The translations under genes were made by a program, and so were the position numbers. DNA of 42,964 nt from Bacteroidota bacterium (GTDB lineage: Bacteria; Bacteroidota; Bacteroidia; CAILMK01; JAAYUY01): the NCBI GenBank assembly GCA_018698135.1, contig JABINZ010000287.1, positions 1 to 42,964 on the forward strand, given 5' to 3'. Positions within the stretch are counted from its first letter, which is position 1, and each line of letters opens with the position of its first letter. Positions 8,622 to 16,049 of the stretch are shown in pieces. The notes beneath the pieces were generated by a model. It worked only from the letters and a program-made list of their open reading frames with translations, made no database searches and was not told the origin of the DNA.

Positions 8622-9935
8622 ATGAAAATATTGAAATTGAAAAACACGCTACAATTAGCAGTTATTTTATCACTTGTATTATTCTCATATTCTTGTGACA
8701 AATCAACAGAAAAATTCACATATGTAGCCAATGTACCCATATACATGGATTACGATGAATTCAGAGCAACTGCAATAACATTTGAAGCACCAATGCCTCT
8801 GGAAAACACAGGTAAAATATATTTTAAGGGAGGAAAAATCTATGTCAATGAGTTATTTAAAGGAATTCACGTAATAGATAATTCAGATCCCACAGCTCCA
8901 AATAATATTGGATTTATTAGCATCCCTGGTAATGTTGATATTGCCATAAAAGGAAATATCCTTTATGTTGATAGCTATATTGACTTATTAGCCATTGATA
9001 TTAGTAATATCAACAATCCACAAGTTACAACCCGCTTAGAAAATGTTTTTGAACCATCTTTGCCACCTTTTGATGAAACTTTTCCTGTGGCACCTTTAGA
9101 TCATGATCAGGGTGTTGTAATTGATTGGAAAATTGAAAAGATAACTGAAAAAATTGATGTTACTGGAAACTATTATTATGGAGGTACACGTTGGTTATTT
9201 ACTGAAGTAGACGCACTTAGTGCTAACAGCCCAGGTAGTGGAACCAAAACATATTTTGTTCCAAATGCAGTTGGGGTAGCTGGTTCAATGGCTCGTTTTA
9301 TTATTTTTTCTGATTATTTGTACACTATCAATGCCGAGGATATCAAAGTCTTTAATATTTCAAATACTCCAGAACCACAGGAAGGTGCGTCTGTAGAAAC
9401 AGCACGTATTATTGAAACCTTATTTGTTTATAACGATAATTTGTTTGTTGGATCAACAACTGGAATGCTAATCTATAGTTTGGGAAATCCTGCAAATCCA
9501 ACTTATTTATCTATGCTTGATCATTTTAGATCATGTGATCCAGTTGTTGTGGAAGGCGATTATGCCTATGTAACCCTTAGAGCAGGAAGTGGTTGTGGTA
9601 GCAGTAATTCAAATCAGCTTGATGTGGTAAATATTGCCAATATTACCAGCCCATATTTGGTGAAAAGTTACTCTATGACGGGCCCTTACGGATTAGGCAT
9701 TGATAATGATGTGCTCTTTATTTGTGATGGAGATGATGGTCTTAAAGTGTTTGATGCAACTGATAAAACACGAATCAGCAATAATATGATCAAACATTTT
9801 CCTGCCATAAATGCATTTGATATTATTCCTTATAATAATTTAGCCATGATGATTGGCTCAGATGGTTTGTATCAGTATAACTACAGCGATCTTGATAACA
9901 TGGAATTATTAAGTGTAATTCCAATTGTAAAATAG
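8622..9935 (+). CDS. LVIVD-repeat lipoprotein
   Basis: Lipoprotein of 437 aa with lipobox SYSC (Cys25). It has repeated units of the form GKIYVNELFKGIHVIDNSDP, NILYVDSYIDLLAIDISN, DYLYTINAEDIKVFNISNTP and DVLFICDGDDGLKVFDATDK. These are LVIVD-type blades that pack into a beta-propeller. The role of the family is unknown; surface location follows from the lipobox. A Cys-rich loop (SCDPVV...GSGCGSSNSN) is inserted in the middle. It lies 4 bases upstream of the radical SAM gene and is probably co-transcribed with it. Confidence 0.85.
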   Translation: MKILKLKNTLQLAVILSLVLFSYSCDKSTEKFTYVANVPIYMDYDEFRATAITFEAPMPLENTGKIYFKGGKIYVNELFKGIHVIDNSDPTAPNNIGFISIPGNVDIAIKGNILYVDSYIDLLAIDISNINNPQVTTRLENVFEPSLPPFDETFPVAPLDHDQGVVIDWKIEKITEKIDVTGNYYYGGTRWLFTEVDALSANSPGSGTKTYFVPNAVGVAGSMARFIIFSDYLYTINAEDIKVFNISNTPEPQEGASVETARIIETLFVYNDNLFVGSTTGMLIYSLGNPANPTYLSMLDHFRSCDPVVVEGDYAYVTLRAGSGCGSSNSNQLDVVNIANITSPYLVKSYSMTGPYGLGIDNDVLFICDGDDGLKVFDATDKTRISNNMIKHFPAINAFDIIPYNNLAMMIGSDGLYQYNYSDLDNMELLSVIPIVK

Positions 9936-9939
9936 TTTT

Positions 9940-10830
9940 ATGAGGTTTTTACATCTTGGCTACGATATGCCTTTGTATAGGCCTCCCAGTGAGGCAAATT
10001 CCCTTATTTTACAGCTGACAATTGGTTGTTCCTGGAATAAATGTGCATTTTGCGAAATGTATAAGGCCAAAAAATTCAGGATAAGAACAGAGGAAGAAAT
10101 AGAGGAAGAAATAGAATTTCTGGCCACTTATGATACAGACGTTAGAAGAGTTTTCTTTGCCGATGGCAATGCAATGGTTCTGTCGGCAGACAAACTCCTT
10201 CGAATTATTGATAAGATTCATGCAAATTTCCCCAAAGTTCATAGAATCTCAGCCTATGCCTTACCAAAAGATATTCTGTCCAAATCAGAGGAAGATTTAA
10301 AAGCCCTTAAAGAGGCTGGATTGAATTTACTGTATGTGGGAATTGAATCGGGTGATGATGAATTATTAGAAAAAGTAAATAAGGGCGAAACCTATGAATC
10401 AACACTTATTAGTCTTTTAAAAGCTAAACAAGCAGGAATAAAACTCTCTTTAATGGTCATTAATGGTTTAGGTGGAAAAAAGTATTCATTCCAACATGCG
10501 CTTAATTCGGCAAAACTCATTAATGAAATCCAACCAGAATATGTTTCAACACTTGTATTAAGTTTTCCTACTGGAGAAAAAAAATATGCAGAACACTTCA
10601 ATGGAGATTATGAATCGATGACCAAAATTGATTTAATTCAGGAGATGGAGGTGTTTCTTGAGCATTCAGATTTGAATTGCTCAATTTTCAGATCTGATCA
10701 TGCATCAAATTATCTGGTATTGAAAGGAATATTGGGACGAGATAAAGGACGGCTTTTAATGCAAGTGAAAAAAGCAATTAGTAATCCTCATTTAGTTGAA
10801 TTGAAAGAAGAATGGCAATTGGGCTTTTAG
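9940..10830 (+). CDS. Radical SAM protein with CX4CX2C cluster motif
   Basis: Radical S-adenosylmethionine protein of 296 aa. The iron-sulfur cysteines are Cys30, Cys35 and Cys38 in GCSWNKCAFCEMY, spaced CX4CX2C rather than the usual CX3CX2C. This spacing recurs in a subgroup of Elp3/MiaB-like proteins of unknown function. The SAM-binding region includes VFFADGNAMVL and LYVGIESGDDELLEKVNKG. No auxiliary cluster or B12 domain is visible. It follows the LVIVD gene by 4 bases and converges, with a 4-base overlap, on the NAD(P)-binding protein gene. The substrate is unknown. Confidence 0.88.
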   Translation: MRFLHLGYDMPLYRPPSEANSLILQLTIGCSWNKCAFCEMYKAKKFRIRTEEEIEEEIEFLATYDTDVRRVFFADGNAMVLSADKLLRIIDKIHANFPKVHRISAYALPKDILSKSEEDLKALKEAGLNLLYVGIESGDDELLEKVNKGETYESTLISLLKAKQAGIKLSLMVINGLGGKKYSFQHALNSAKLINEIQPEYVSTLVLSFPTGEKKYAEHFNGDYESMTKIDLIQEMEVFLEHSDLNCSIFRSDHASNYLVLKGILGRDKGRLLMQVKKAISNPHLVELKEEWQLGF

Positions 10831-11667: not shown

Positions 11668-12999
11668 ATGGTAAAAATGGCAAAGTCAAAACTAATTTCT
11701 GGTTTCTCCAAACAGACAAAAAATGATAAAATTGAATTGATTGCACAGAATTTTACTAATCCAGTCGAAACCATAAAGGAGTATAAATCATTTTGGCATA
11801 ATGACGCTGAAATTCAAAAATTACTTGACGAGTTTAGTGAAAACACTATTTCGAATTTCTATTTCCCCTATGGCATCGCGCCAAATTTTGTCATCAATGG
11901 TAAGAATTATATTCTGCCCATGGTTATCGAAGAAAGCTCAGTAGTTGCAGCAGCAGCAAATAGTGCTAAGTTTTGGTCGACAAGAGGTGGCTTTCATGCA
12001 AAAGTAGTTTCATCTGTAAAAATTGGTCAGGTTCATTTTACATGGAAGGGTAATCTTGAAAAATTACAACTCCATTTTGAGGAAATGAAGCAAAGGATGA
12101 TTAAAAACGCCAAGCCAATAACAGCTAAAATGGAAGCACGTGGTGGTGGAATAGTAGATATTGAATTGGTCGATATGACCCATGAAATTGATGACTACTA
12201 CCAGCTTAAAGCTTCATTCGAAACAGTGGATTCAATGGGAGCTAATTTTATTAATTCCTGTCTAGAGGATTTTGCCATGACATTGCGCTCTTTTCTTTAT
12301 AATATGCCCTATTTTGAAGGAAGTGACAAAGACTGCACGGTTATCATGTCCATATTATCGAATTATACACCAGATTGTTTGGTACAAGCATGGGTTGAAT
12401 GTGATCTAGAAGATTTGGGCCCTTTTGATGATGGGCAATCTGTTGATGACTTTGTTATGAAGTTTGAGCAAGCGATTAAAATTGCTAAAGTTGATACATT
12501 TAGAGCTACTACACATAATAAAGGAATATTTAATGGAATTGATGCAGTTGTATTAGCAACTGGAAACGATTTCAGAGCAGTTGAAGCAGCTGGACATACA
12601 TTTGCTTCGAGAGATGGAAAATATAGAAGTTTGACTGATGTTACTATTGAGAATGGTCGATTTAAATATATGTTGACAACTCCGATGGCCATAGGAACAG
12701 TTGGCGGTTTAACATCACTACATCCATTGGCAAAATTAAGCTTGGAGTTGTTAGGTCGTCCGGGAGGAAAAGAACTAATGATGATTGCAGCCACTTCTGG
12801 ATTGGCAAATAATTTTGGAGCAGTAACCACATTGGTCACAAAAGGAATTCAGAAAGGGCACATGAAAATGCATTTGCTAAATATATTGAATAGCTATAAT
12901 GCTACGGATACTGAAAAACAGCAAACAGTTGATTATTTCAAAGACAAAAAGGTAAGTTTTAATGCTGTAAGAGAATATCTTGATCAATTAAGAAAATAA
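11668..12999 (+). CDS. mvaA: Hydroxymethylglutaryl-CoA reductase
   Basis: HMG-CoA reductase, 443 aa, which makes (or in degradative enzymes consumes) mevalonate. The catalytic set is complete: Glu88-Glu89 in PMVIEESSVVAAA, Lys285 in THNKGIFNGIDAVVLATGND, Asp301 in that same block and His398 in KGHMKMH. Length and the HNKGI...GNDFRA layout fit the soluble bacterial (class II) enzyme, without membrane segments. The cofactor (NADH or NADPH) is not decided. The next mevalonate gene begins in the -1 frame around this stop codon; the last sense codon AAA is preceded by another A, so the sequence reads AAAATAA. Biosynthetic use is inferred from the neighbouring pathway genes. Met4 at 11677 is a possible alternative start. 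Confidence 0.94.
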   Translation: MVKMAKSKLISGFSKQTKNDKIELIAQNFTNPVETIKEYKSFWHNDAEIQKLLDEFSENTISNFYFPYGIAPNFVINGKNYILPMVIEESSVVAAAANSAKFWSTRGGFHAKVVSSVKIGQVHFTWKGNLEKLQLHFEEMKQRMIKNAKPITAKMEARGGGIVDIELVDMTHEIDDYYQLKASFETVDSMGANFINSCLEDFAMTLRSFLYNMPYFEGSDKDCTVIMSILSNYTPDCLVQAWVECDLEDLGPFDDGQSVDDFVMKFEQAIKIAKVDTFRATTHNKGIFNGIDAVVLATGNDFRAVEAAGHTFASRDGKYRSLTDVTIENGRFKYMLTTPMAIGTVGGLTSLHPLAKLSLELLGRPGGKELMMIAATSGLANNFGAVTTLVTKGIQKGHMKMHLLNILNSYNATDTEKQQTVDYFKDKKVSFNAVREYLDQLRK

Positions 13000-13916
13000 T
13001 CATCGAAACTTATTATTCAAACGGGAAATTATTATTCACTGGTGAATATCTGGTGTTAAGAGGAGCAAAAAGTTTAGCTGTTCCTGTTAAGTTTGGTCAA
13101 TCTTTACAAATCGAACGTATTGATGAGCAAAATGTTCTTTATTGGCAAAGTAAAGAATTCGGCAAAACATGGTTTGAAGCCAAAATCAAACTGGATTCTT
13201 TTCTAATCGAACATACAAGTGATGATACAATTGGATCGAAACTATTGTCCGTTTTAAAGGAGGCTAGAAATTTAAATTCATCATTTTTGAGTGACGGGAG
13301 AGCTTTTAAGTGCGAAACGAATTTGAATTTTAATAGAAAATGGGGATTGGGCTCCAGCTCAACATTGCTTTCCTTAATTGCAGAATGGTCAAAATGCGAT
13401 GTATATGAATTGCTGAAAAATACTTTTGGAGGATCTGGATATGATGTTGCCTGTGCACAAAGTGCTGGCCCATTAACATATCAAATAGTAAATAATATGG
13501 CAGTCGTTAATCAAATTAATTTTAAGCCTGATTTTAGAAAGAATATCTGTTTCGTTTTTTTAGGAAAGAAACAACAAACAGATCAGGAAATTAAAAGGTT
13601 TAATTCTGAATCAATTATTAGCAAGTTTGAAGTAGAACAAATAAGCAATTTAACAAACGATATTATCAATGCGTATAGTCAGGGAGATTTTAATGAAAGT
13701 TTGACTAAACATGAGAAAATCACGGCTTCTGTTATAAAAAGAATCCCAATTAAAGATGAGCGATTTGCAGACTTCAATGGTGAAATTAAATCATTGGGTG
13801 CATGGGGTGGTGATTTTATTATGGTCTCTTCTCTCATGAACAGAGAAGAAACAATGGCTTATTTCGAATCTAAAGGTTTATCAACTATACTGAGCTATGA
13901 TGATATGGTTTTGTAA
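12987..13916 (+). CDS. GYDIA-type GHMP kinase, non-AUG start
   Basis: GHMP-superfamily small-molecule kinase. Its GGSGYDVACAQSAGP block is the signature of the GYDIA family found in Bacteroidota mevalonate loci. WGLGSSSTLL is the ATP-binding motif 2. The first in-frame GTG, at 13053, would cut off the family's conserved N-terminus: the codons just before it read YYSNGKLLFTGEYL, a typical GHMP motif 1. No ATG, GTG or TTG exists between 13053 and an in-frame TGA at 12981. Candidate starts are ATT 12987 (used here, 309 aa), ATA 12996 or ATC 12999, all around the HMG-CoA reductase stop (12997-12999), which lies in the +1 frame relative to this gene. A -1 slip at AAAATAA is the other option. The substrate is inferred to be phosphomevalonate, because no classical phosphomevalonate kinase is present. 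Confidence 0.8.
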   Translation: MKKIIIETYYSNGKLLFTGEYLVLRGAKSLAVPVKFGQSLQIERIDEQNVLYWQSKEFGKTWFEAKIKLDSFLIEHTSDDTIGSKLLSVLKEARNLNSSFLSDGRAFKCETNLNFNRKWGLGSSSTLLSLIAEWSKCDVYELLKNTFGGSGYDVACAQSAGPLTYQIVNNMAVVNQINFKPDFRKNICFVFLGKKQQTDQEIKRFNSESIISKFEVEQISNLTNDIINAYSQGDFNESLTKHEKITASVIKRIPIKDERFADFNGEIKSLGAWGGDFIMVSSLMNREETMAYFESKGLSTILSYDDMVL

Positions 13917-13921
13917 ACGAA

Positions 13922-14344
13922 CTATTCTTCAGTTGCTTTTCTTCCCTTATGAATATATTTATTTACTTTTCGCAATAAAACATCCCTTTTAATTGGCTTT
14001 GTAATCAAGTCATCACAACCAGCATCTAAAACTAAGTGCTTATTATTGTGATATACATAAGCTGTTTGCGCAACAATAGGTAAATCAGGTCTTAATTTCC
14101 GGATGATTCGTGTCGTTTCATAACCATCAATGCCGGGTAAACGAATATCCATTAAAACAAGGTCAATGTTCTCGTGTTCCTTACACAGCTCAATTCCTGT
14201 TTCTCCATCCATTGCCCATAAAACTTGTGCATAAGTTCTTCTTAAAATACTATCAATGATCATATGATTGGTTTCCATGTCCTCTACCACAAGAATCATT
14301 TTTCCCATAAAATCATATTGCTTCTTTTTCTTATCCTCTACCAT
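13922..14344 (-). CDS. Receiver-only response regulator 1
   Basis: Single CheY-like receiver domain of 140 aa with no output domain. The acidic pocket is Glu21-Asp22, the phospho-acceptor Asp66 (LVLMDIRLPG), the switch Thr94 (AQTAY) and Lys116 (TKPIK). All are intact, so it can probably be phosphorylated. A short basic stretch (KKKK) precedes the domain. It is one of two adjacent paralogues, with an intergenic gap of 15 bases, and no histidine kinase is next to them. It ends 6 bases from the stop of the convergent GYDIA kinase. Partners are unknown; it could relay to a kinase or pole protein. Confidence 0.9.
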   Translation of the reverse strand: MVEDKKKKQYDFMGKMILVVEDMETNHMIIDSILRRTYAQVLWAMDGETGIELCKEHENIDLVLMDIRLPGIDGYETTRIIRKLRPDLPIVAQTAYVYHNNKHLVLDAGCDDLITKPIKRDVLLRKVNKYIHKGRKATEE

Positions 14345-14359
14345 TTGATCGATTATTTT

Positions 14360-14791
14360 CTATTTTGTATCGATATATTTCGAAATCTTTTTGAGAAGAA
14401 TTTCTTTTTTAATTGGTTTGGTAATCAGGTCATTACAACCAACTTCAATGACTTTGTGTTTTTCCTCTTCCATTACATAAGCGGTTTGCGCAACAATAGG
14501 TAATTCAGGTCTGAATTTACGAATTGCCTGGGTTGCTTCATAACCATTCATCTTAGGAAGACGGATGTCCATTAAAACGATATCAATATCTTCATTTTCT
14601 TCACACATTTCAACAGCTTGCTTGCCATCCATTGCCCACATTAATCGAGCACTGGTAGGACGTAACATCAGGTCGATGAGCATGTGGTTCGTTCTTTCAT
14701 CTTCAACAATGAGTATAAACTTATTTAGCCAGCGGTATTTGCGACCTGAATCCGATATTTTTTTCTTTTTTCTTTTTTTTAGTTCAACCAT
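14360..14791 (-). CDS. Receiver-only response regulator 2
   Basis: Second CheY-like receiver protein, 143 aa from the ATG at 14791. The longer frame starting with TTG at 14812 is less likely, because MVELKKRKKKK lines up with the start of the neighbouring paralogue (MVEDKKKK). The phospho-acceptor Asp is in IVLMDIRLPK, the switch Thr in VAQTAY and the Lys in TKPIK, all as in its neighbour. The pair is clearly a tandem duplication: the blocks LMDIRLP, PIVAQTAYV and DLITKPIK are shared. No DNA-binding or enzymatic domain is attached. It is divergent from mvaD, with about 180 bases between them. Confidence 0.9.
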   Translation of the reverse strand: MVELKKRKKKKISDSGRKYRWLNKFILIVEDERTNHMLIDLMLRPTSARLMWAMDGKQAVEMCEENEDIDIVLMDIRLPKMNGYEATQAIRKFRPELPIVAQTAYVMEEEKHKVIEVGCNDLITKPIKKEILLKKISKYIDTK

Positions 14792-14919
14792 GATATACAC
14801 TTTAATCCTCAAAAAAGAAGGGATTATTGACTTTATTTAACTAATTCTCGTGCTTCTAAAATAAGGTTTTTTAAAATAACAAATAATAATAATATGAACA
14901 ATTCTGAATTTATGTTGCT

Positions 14920-14949
14920 TTTGGTATTTCGATTATAAGTTTAACTTTG
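14920..14949 (+). promoter_or_regulatory. Bacteroidota-type promoter of the mvaD-mvk-MBL block
   Basis: TTTG at 14920-14923 and TAACTTTG at 14942-14949 match the -33 and -7 elements, 18 bases apart. The -7 box ends 20 bases before the TTG start of mvaD. This is one of the best promoter matches in the window and supports independent transcription of the second mevalonate block. Confidence 0.65.
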
Positions 14950-14969
14950 CAGAGAAAAAACAGCTAAAA

Positions 14970-16049
14970 TTGTATTCAAATCCAGAATTAGTATTGAAAG
15001 GAGCTTTTTTAGAGAGTTCTATTTGTTGGCAAAGCCCATCCAATATTGCTTTGATAAAATATTGGGGAAAATACGGTATACAACTGCCTCAAAATCCTTC
15101 ATTAAGTATTACCCTAAATAATGCAGTAACCAAAACGAAAGTTACCTATGCTTATTCTACTACAGGTAAAATTGAAACACAGCTTGTTTTTAATGATGGA
15201 GAAGCGCCACTGTTTCATGAAAAAATTAATGTTTTTCTAAAATCGATTCTACCAATTTTTCCATTTTTAAGTCAATTGAAGATGACTATTGAGTCAAGCA
15301 ATACATTTCCTCATTCCGCTGGAATTGCTTCTTCAGCATCAGCCATGAGTGCATTGGCTTTATGTTTATGTTCAATAGAGAATAAGTTGTTTAGTTCATT
15401 ATCCAATGCTAGTGATTTTTTTAATAAAGCAAGTTATGTAGCCCGATTAGGTTCAGGGAGTGCTTCCCGATCTGTTTATGGAGGACTGGTGCTTTGGGGA
15501 AAATATGATGAAATCAATGAAAGCTCCAATGAGTTTGCAGTTCCATTAAGGGAAAATATACATCCCAATTTTGCAACTTTACATGATGCAATTTTAATAG
15601 TTTCTGATCAGGAAAAGAAAGTTTCCAGCACAAAGGGGCATAGTTTAATGCATGGCCATCCGTTTGAAAAAGCTCGATTTGAACAAGCAAGAGCAAATAT
15701 GAAGGTATTATTAAGTGCTTTGAAAGATGGAGATATACCTCAATTTATTGAAGTAGTTGAAAATGAAGCACTGAGTTTGCATGCCATGATGATGACTTCC
15801 AAGGAGTCGTTTTTATTAATGGAGCCTGCAACTATCCACATTATCGACAAAATCAGATTTTTCCGTAAAGAAAATAAAGTCGATATTTGCTTTACACTTG
15901 ATGCAGGGCCGAATATACACTTGATTTACAGTGAAAAGGATAAACATCATGTGAAGGGATTTATTAAGAATGACCTACTCAAAAATGGTCTAATAAAAAA
16001 TTGGATTGATGATTGTGTTGGTGATGGTCCTAAAATAATAAAGGAATAA
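14970..16049 (+). CDS. mvaD: Diphosphomevalonate decarboxylase
   Basis: Mevalonate 5-diphosphate decarboxylase, 359 aa, converting mevalonate diphosphate to isopentenyl diphosphate with ATP. Motifs: SPSNIALIKYWGK (22-34, substrate binding), PHSAGIASSASA (114-125, ATP loop), RLGSGSASRSVYGG, and the catalytic Asp in TLDAGPNIHLIY near the C-terminus. The start is TTG at 14970, chosen because a good promoter ends just upstream and the SPSNIALIKYWGK motif sits at the normal distance. The stop overlaps the ATG of the mevalonate kinase by one base. Confidence 0.95.
   Translation: MYSNPELVLKGAFLESSICWQSPSNIALIKYWGKYGIQLPQNPSLSITLNNAVTKTKVTYAYSTTGKIETQLVFNDGEAPLFHEKINVFLKSILPIFPFLSQLKMTIESSNTFPHSAGIASSASAMSALALCLCSIENKLFSSLSNASDFFNKASYVARLGSGSASRSVYGGLVLWGKYDEINESSNEFAVPLRENIHPNFATLHDAILIVSDQEKKVSSTKGHSLMHGHPFEKARFEQARANMKVLLSALKDGDIPQFIEVVENEALSLHAMMMTSKESFLLMEPATIHIIDKIRFFRKENKVDICFTLDAGPNIHLIYSEKDKHHVKGFIKNDLLKNGLIKNWIDDCVGDGPKIIKE

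Follow-up and report, generated by a model that had tools for sequence, protein, structure and literature searches.

We propose that the GYDIA-family GHMP kinase encoded next to HMG-CoA reductase (HMGR) is translated from an AUC codon at 13002-13004, where the ordinary initiator tRNA would supply formyl-methionine with the aid of an A-rich element. The gene lies in a 42,964-nucleotide stretch of DNA from a Bacteroidota bacterium, hereafter the window. Judging from the comparison of homologous loci, we assign this interpretation a probability of about 0.88. The absence of a canonical start codon is, on the same grounds, almost certainly a conserved biological feature of the gene, and neither a sequencing error nor the trace of a frameshift fusion.

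Table 1. Features at the HMGR-kinase junction (positions in the window)
Feature	Position	Strand	Remarks
HMG-CoA reductase (HMGR) gene	11668..12999	+	Upstream partner in a two-gene operon; TIGR00532 and PF00368
GYDIA-family GHMP kinase	13002..13916	+	304 aa from AUC; stop TAA 13914-13916; conserved from AUC onward in relatives
Proposed AUC start (predicted to be read as fMet)	13002..13004	+	ATC at the homologous slot in the congener and in 73/221 GYDIA loci; context as in other AUC starts
A-rich leader before the start	12987..12998	+	A at -12 and -11, counted from 13002; overlaps the HMGR 3' end
Alternative start candidates AUA 12996 and AUC 12999	12996..13001	+	Less likely: A at -1, rare at AUC starts
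A AAA TAA, proposed slip site	12993..12999	+	In both genus members; not needed
First in-frame canonical codon GTG	13053..13055	+	Rejected as start: GTT in the congener; after conserved motif I

A kinase gene lacking a canonical start codon

The HMGR open reading frame matched TIGR00532 with 263.9 bits (cut-off 259.95) and PF00368 with an E-value of 2.6e-83, and its 3' end reads TTA AGA AAA TAA, with the stop at 12997-12999. The kinase frame, which is -1 relative to HMGR, is open from a TGA at 12981-12983 to the TAA at 13914-13916. Its product is a full-length member of the GYDIA family of GHMP kinases, covering positions 1-299 of the 299 in the profile NF040656 (GHMP_GYDIA) with 357.7 bits (cut-off 225); what differs from the family in the window's genus, and in many Saprospiraceae, is the start codon. 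Position 1 of the profile corresponds to residue 9 of the stop-to-stop frame and thus lies upstream of GTG 13053. A frame scan detected no ATG, GTG, or TTG between the TGA at 12981 and this GTG, and the conserved YYSNGKLLFTGEYL is encoded upstream of it. The sequence-only reading had described a kinase without an AUG/GUG/UUG start, and its coordinates and list of candidate codons were correct; its placement of the motif YYSNGKLLFTGEYL before the first GTG was likewise confirmed in the frame and in the profile alignment.

The comparison with close relatives that it had suggested gave the same picture, as the junction in the congener also has no canonical start. This congener (G001; L003 = L014 = JADHTG010000024), the metagenome-assembled genome (MAG) BS150m-G14, which we take to be of Black Sea origin, was the sole other genome of the genus compared. 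The two genomes share 83% identity in HMGR and 52% in the kinase. At the congener junction, TTAAGAAAATAATAATTATCAAAACT, GTT is found where the window has GTG. Between ATC 13002 and GTG 13053, the two sequences differ by six synonymous and three non-synonymous codon changes, and because of this excess of synonymous changes the stretch is, as far as codon substitutions can tell, translated and under constraint at the protein level.

Two tandem response-regulator receiver-like genes lie on the minus strand, convergent to the kinase (13922-14812), the second of which is listed from a TTG start. In the diphosphomevalonate decarboxylase gene (mvaD, 14898-16049), TTG 14970 is the only early start available; mvaD of the congener has a Met codon nearer the conserved domain, and the two genomes seem to start the gene at different positions. 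A mevalonate-kinase-like gene comes after mvaD, with an overlapping start at 16049.

AUC at the putative start position of GYDIA kinases

Sampling of the class Bacteroidia, and then of one rich family (f63), yielded 221 distinct GYDIA loci, mostly from draft or metagenome-assembled genomes; the second round of sampling targeted the AUC clade. The family f63 includes a Lewinellaceae record and is presumably Saprospiraceae-like. We scored a canonical start as ATG, GTG, or TTG in the 14 codons preceding the [SAG]-x-G-K motif, and found one in 133 of the 221 loci. Among the 88 loci that lack it, 86 have an isoleucine codon (AUH; ATC 73, ATT 7, ATA 6) at the position that Met occupies in other loci, at -5/-6 and in a few cases at -7/-8, which is the range where canonical starts peak. 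The 73 occurrences of ATC compare with 23.7 expected from the Ile codon use in the same genes (naive binomial p = 2e-28, which overstates independence as the loci are related). The first, unaimed sample of f63 lacked the canonical start in 36 of 95 loci, and AUH starts were found in 37 of the 134 genera sampled. Because the absent start recurs in 88 of the 221 loci, nearly all in one family, it is not due to chance. In these loci, no ATG, GTG, or TTG precedes the conserved N-terminus and the same codon is kept across species at the nucleotide level, as befits a conserved non-canonical start. No other codon is often left for starting, since stops frequently stand one to five codons before ATC, as in TAA ATC ATC GGC CAG (L150), TGA GAT ATC GGA CAA (L285), and TAA GTC ATC GCC (L294); in part of the loci with AUC at this position, however, a TTG or ATG is present a few codons earlier.

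A Winogradskyella MAG (L015; JAGQZO010000077) has ATA GAA ACA TAT TAT AGC in the start slot of its GYDIA kinase. An open repeat (CTACGCTCAGCCACCGAAAAC...) precedes it over 141 codons in frame, the last 25 of which contain no ATG, GTG, or TTG. A 96% complete genome from the family of the window genome (G002) gave no GYDIA kinase match, and the occurrence of the kinase within this order is patchy.

In a tree of 165 kinases with SH-aLRT support, the AUH state occupied 30 of the 44 rows of one clade (SH-aLRT 100), the other 14 having GTG (5), TTG (5), or ATG (4). Outside this clade, AUH was found in 9 of 121 rows and ATG was dominant with 76. The genus of the window is a separate occurrence of AUH, and at least seven changes are forced by the well-supported branches.

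The AUC start is gene-specific and does not reflect a changed code, because the kinase was the only clear case in a scan of 132 non-overlapping gene pairs, of which 101 compared G321 with G207 and 31 the window with G001. It was the only gene among them with a conserved N-terminus that, in both genomes, extends tens of codons upstream of the first NTG, with 81-94% identity; in the other pairs listed, the extension was 6-15 residues long and less well conserved, and an NTG was near. Genome-wide use of AUC was accordingly discarded as an explanation, with this single clear case in the two genome pairs. An unusual initiator tRNA was considered as well and provisionally set aside on the basis of the tRNAs typed, which included the eight weakest matches only in part: the one initiator-like tRNA (L199) carries the normal anticodon CAT within a CTCATAA loop, none resembled an initiator with GAT, and tRNA-Ile(GAT) was not seen.

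When the 73 AUC starts were aligned on ATC, A was present at -13, -12, and -11 in 79, 86, and 79%, respectively, a pyrimidine (C or T) preceded ATC in 68 of the 73, and a purine (A or G) followed it (+4) in all 73. The same features set AUH starts apart from canonical starts of the same gene, in counts taken over related loci: at least two A at -13 to -11 in 75/86 against 55/133, a pyrimidine at -1 in 79/86 against 80/133, and a purine at +4 in 84/86 against 83/133. In Flavobacterium johnsoniae, A is enriched at -14 to -11 of initiation regions (Baez et al. 2019; PMC6847099), and A at -12, -13, -6, and -3 has a positive effect on initiation (PMC6847099). The A box at -13 to -11 is an initiation signal at the proper distance from AUC; it matches this Bacteroidetes determinant at a set distance and therefore points to ATC as the start.

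Alternative explanations and the choice of codon

The sequence-only reading had offered a sequencing error as the plain alternative. The window is indeed part of a draft genome of 287 contigs, from which a base error could have removed an ATG, but the congener, assembled independently, and dozens of further genomes lack a start at the same codon slot, which reduces the chance of a sequencing or assembly error to practically nothing. It is also exceedingly improbable that we are dealing with a truncated or decaying kinase whose start is GTG 13053, even though this is the first canonical in-frame codon: such a start would delete the conserved N-terminal NGKLL-TGEY motif, and the synonymous changes outnumber the non-synonymous ones upstream of it (6 against 3). 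The congener, having no start at the junction and GTT in place of the GTG, therefore excludes both explanations for practical purposes. There was no solved relative of the kinase in the PDB by which to judge its N-terminus.

It had also been suggested that tRNA-Lys slips by -1 on A AAA TAA where HMGR ends and so gives an HMGR-kinase fusion; both genus members do retain the heptamer, together with the -1 relation of the frames, despite a length difference of 3 nt. Conservation of the last HMGR codons would be expected from HMGR itself, however, and one run of AAAA makes a weak slip site. In the 33 AUH loci that have HMGR upstream, the HMGR stop lies 5-207 nt away, in frames 0, 1, and 2 and with in-frame stops between, so the fusion fails as an account of the relatives. 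AUH relatives would start the kinase at the same homologous codon without HMGR; in relatives that share the missing start, the HMGR stop was 15-207 nt away in any of the three frames or was not present within the upstream DNA examined. The junction fold had no unusual stability against shuffled sequences (z of 0.87 and 0.07). We found neither the fixed frame relation and slip site nor the stimulatory structure of a programmed -1 frameshift, only the AAAA run. We thus consider the slip very improbable and, given the variable distance and frame of the HMGR stop in relatives and the ordinary fold, A AAA TAA in the genus of the window most likely incidental.

The exact start codon in the window is less certain than the class of start, because three AUH codons follow one another (ATA 12996, ATC 12999, and ATC 13002). 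Starting at AUA 12996 or AUC 12999 by termination-reinitiation, in overlap with the HMGR stop, is unlikely, though several features speak for it: the overlap of AUA 12996 with the stop has the geometry of the classic AUGA type, an AUA stands at the same place in the congener, and infC of this genus appears to use AUA. Yet the AUC at the 13002 slot is the codon common to the congener and Saprospiraceae, and both alternatives have A at -1, a base found at only 3 of the 73 AUC starts. ATC 13002 is flanked by C (-1) and G (+4), and upstream of it A occupies -3, -6, -11, and -12, with T at -13. Judged by the shared slot and the fitting context, AUC 13002 is the best start in the window, with a predicted product of 304 residues beginning (f)M-E-T-Y-Y-S-N-G-K... 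The codon is placed 2 nt after the HMGR stop in the window and 5 nt after it in G001. Of the rare AUU/AUA start envisaged from the sequence alone, the rare start is strongly supported, while the codon appears to be AUC 13002 instead. Reinitiation after HMGR, raised at the same time, could still assist in the genus of the window with its nearby stop, but relatives manage without it.

Proposed mechanism and comparison with known systems

In the proposed initiation at AUC 13002, the initiator tRNA would read AUC through two Watson-Crick pairs with a mismatch at the third position. Initiation would be aided by the A-rich element around -13 to -11, a feature that these Bacteroidota, poor in Shine-Dalgarno sequences, employ in any case. 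In an extended codon-anticodon pairing, the bases at -1 and +4 would face A37 and U33 of the initiator tRNA; a -1 pyrimidine might contact A37 and a +4 purine U33. Ribosomes finishing HMGR may also feed the AUC just downstream of the stop. The conserved weak start probably throttles kinase expression, holding output low in an IF3-sensitive manner by analogy with infC and sigR. GTG and TTG are prevalent among the non-AUC members of the AUH clade, which fits selection for low initiation. More tentatively, AUC might be more than a tolerated weak start and represent a specific initiation class in Shine-Dalgarno-poor Bacteroidota, defined by the A box and pyrimidine-AUC-purine with extended initiator-tRNA contacts, gated by IF3 and setting the kinase dosage relative to HMG-CoA reductase. 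Recognition of AUC in particular is suggested by its strong preference over AUU and AUA, but we regard this broader proposal as rather doubtful.

The A-rich, Kozak-like initiation of F. johnsoniae shares its positive determinants with the kinase (A at -14 to -11, -6, and -3); it was described for ordinary starts, and AUU is unmentioned in the main text (PMC6847099). The sigR gene of Streptomyces resembles the kinase as a non-translation gene with a lineage-conserved non-canonical start, low output, and a place in a coupled two-gene operon. Its start is repressed by IF3, and canonical replacement leads to overproduction (PMC5472188). However, sigR is a regulatory gene with GTC instead of ATC and a strong Shine-Dalgarno sequence, and its repression by IF3 is experimental, whereas that of the kinase would follow by analogy. 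The gene for IF3, infC, likewise has a conserved AUH start (AUU/AUC/AUA), being ATT in E. coli and ATC in Streptomyces (PMC5472188). It encodes a translation factor and is controlled by its own product, whereas the kinase is a metabolic enzyme.

In many genera that initiate without reliance on Shine-Dalgarno pairing, this metabolic gene keeps AUC in a sharp and testable context, and it offers a natural system for studying start choice without such pairing and start-codon-based dosage control in the mevalonate pathway. To our knowledge, few bacterial genes keep a non-canonical start. Gene callers assume that conserved non-canonical starts do not exist, and standard annotation would truncate or miss AUC-start kinases. 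In the open-access literature, neither "AUC start codon" together with Bacteroidetes nor GYDIA was found, which does not in itself prove that the start is unreported.

The infC genes of both genus members (L220, G000:C80 ~9850-10375; L222, G001:C126) have no ATG, GTG, or TTG start either. Their frame reads AAAAAGGAGGTTAAT ATA GCT ACC AAT TAC; AUA appears to be the start and is preceded by AAGGAGG, a strong Shine-Dalgarno-like sequence. This arrangement is unusual for Bacteroidota, and it differs from the A-rich leader and AUC of the kinase. In the Saprospiraceae-like infC examined, a TTG is available. With an apparent AUA start of infC in both genomes of the genus, AUH starts seem to be operative in these cells.
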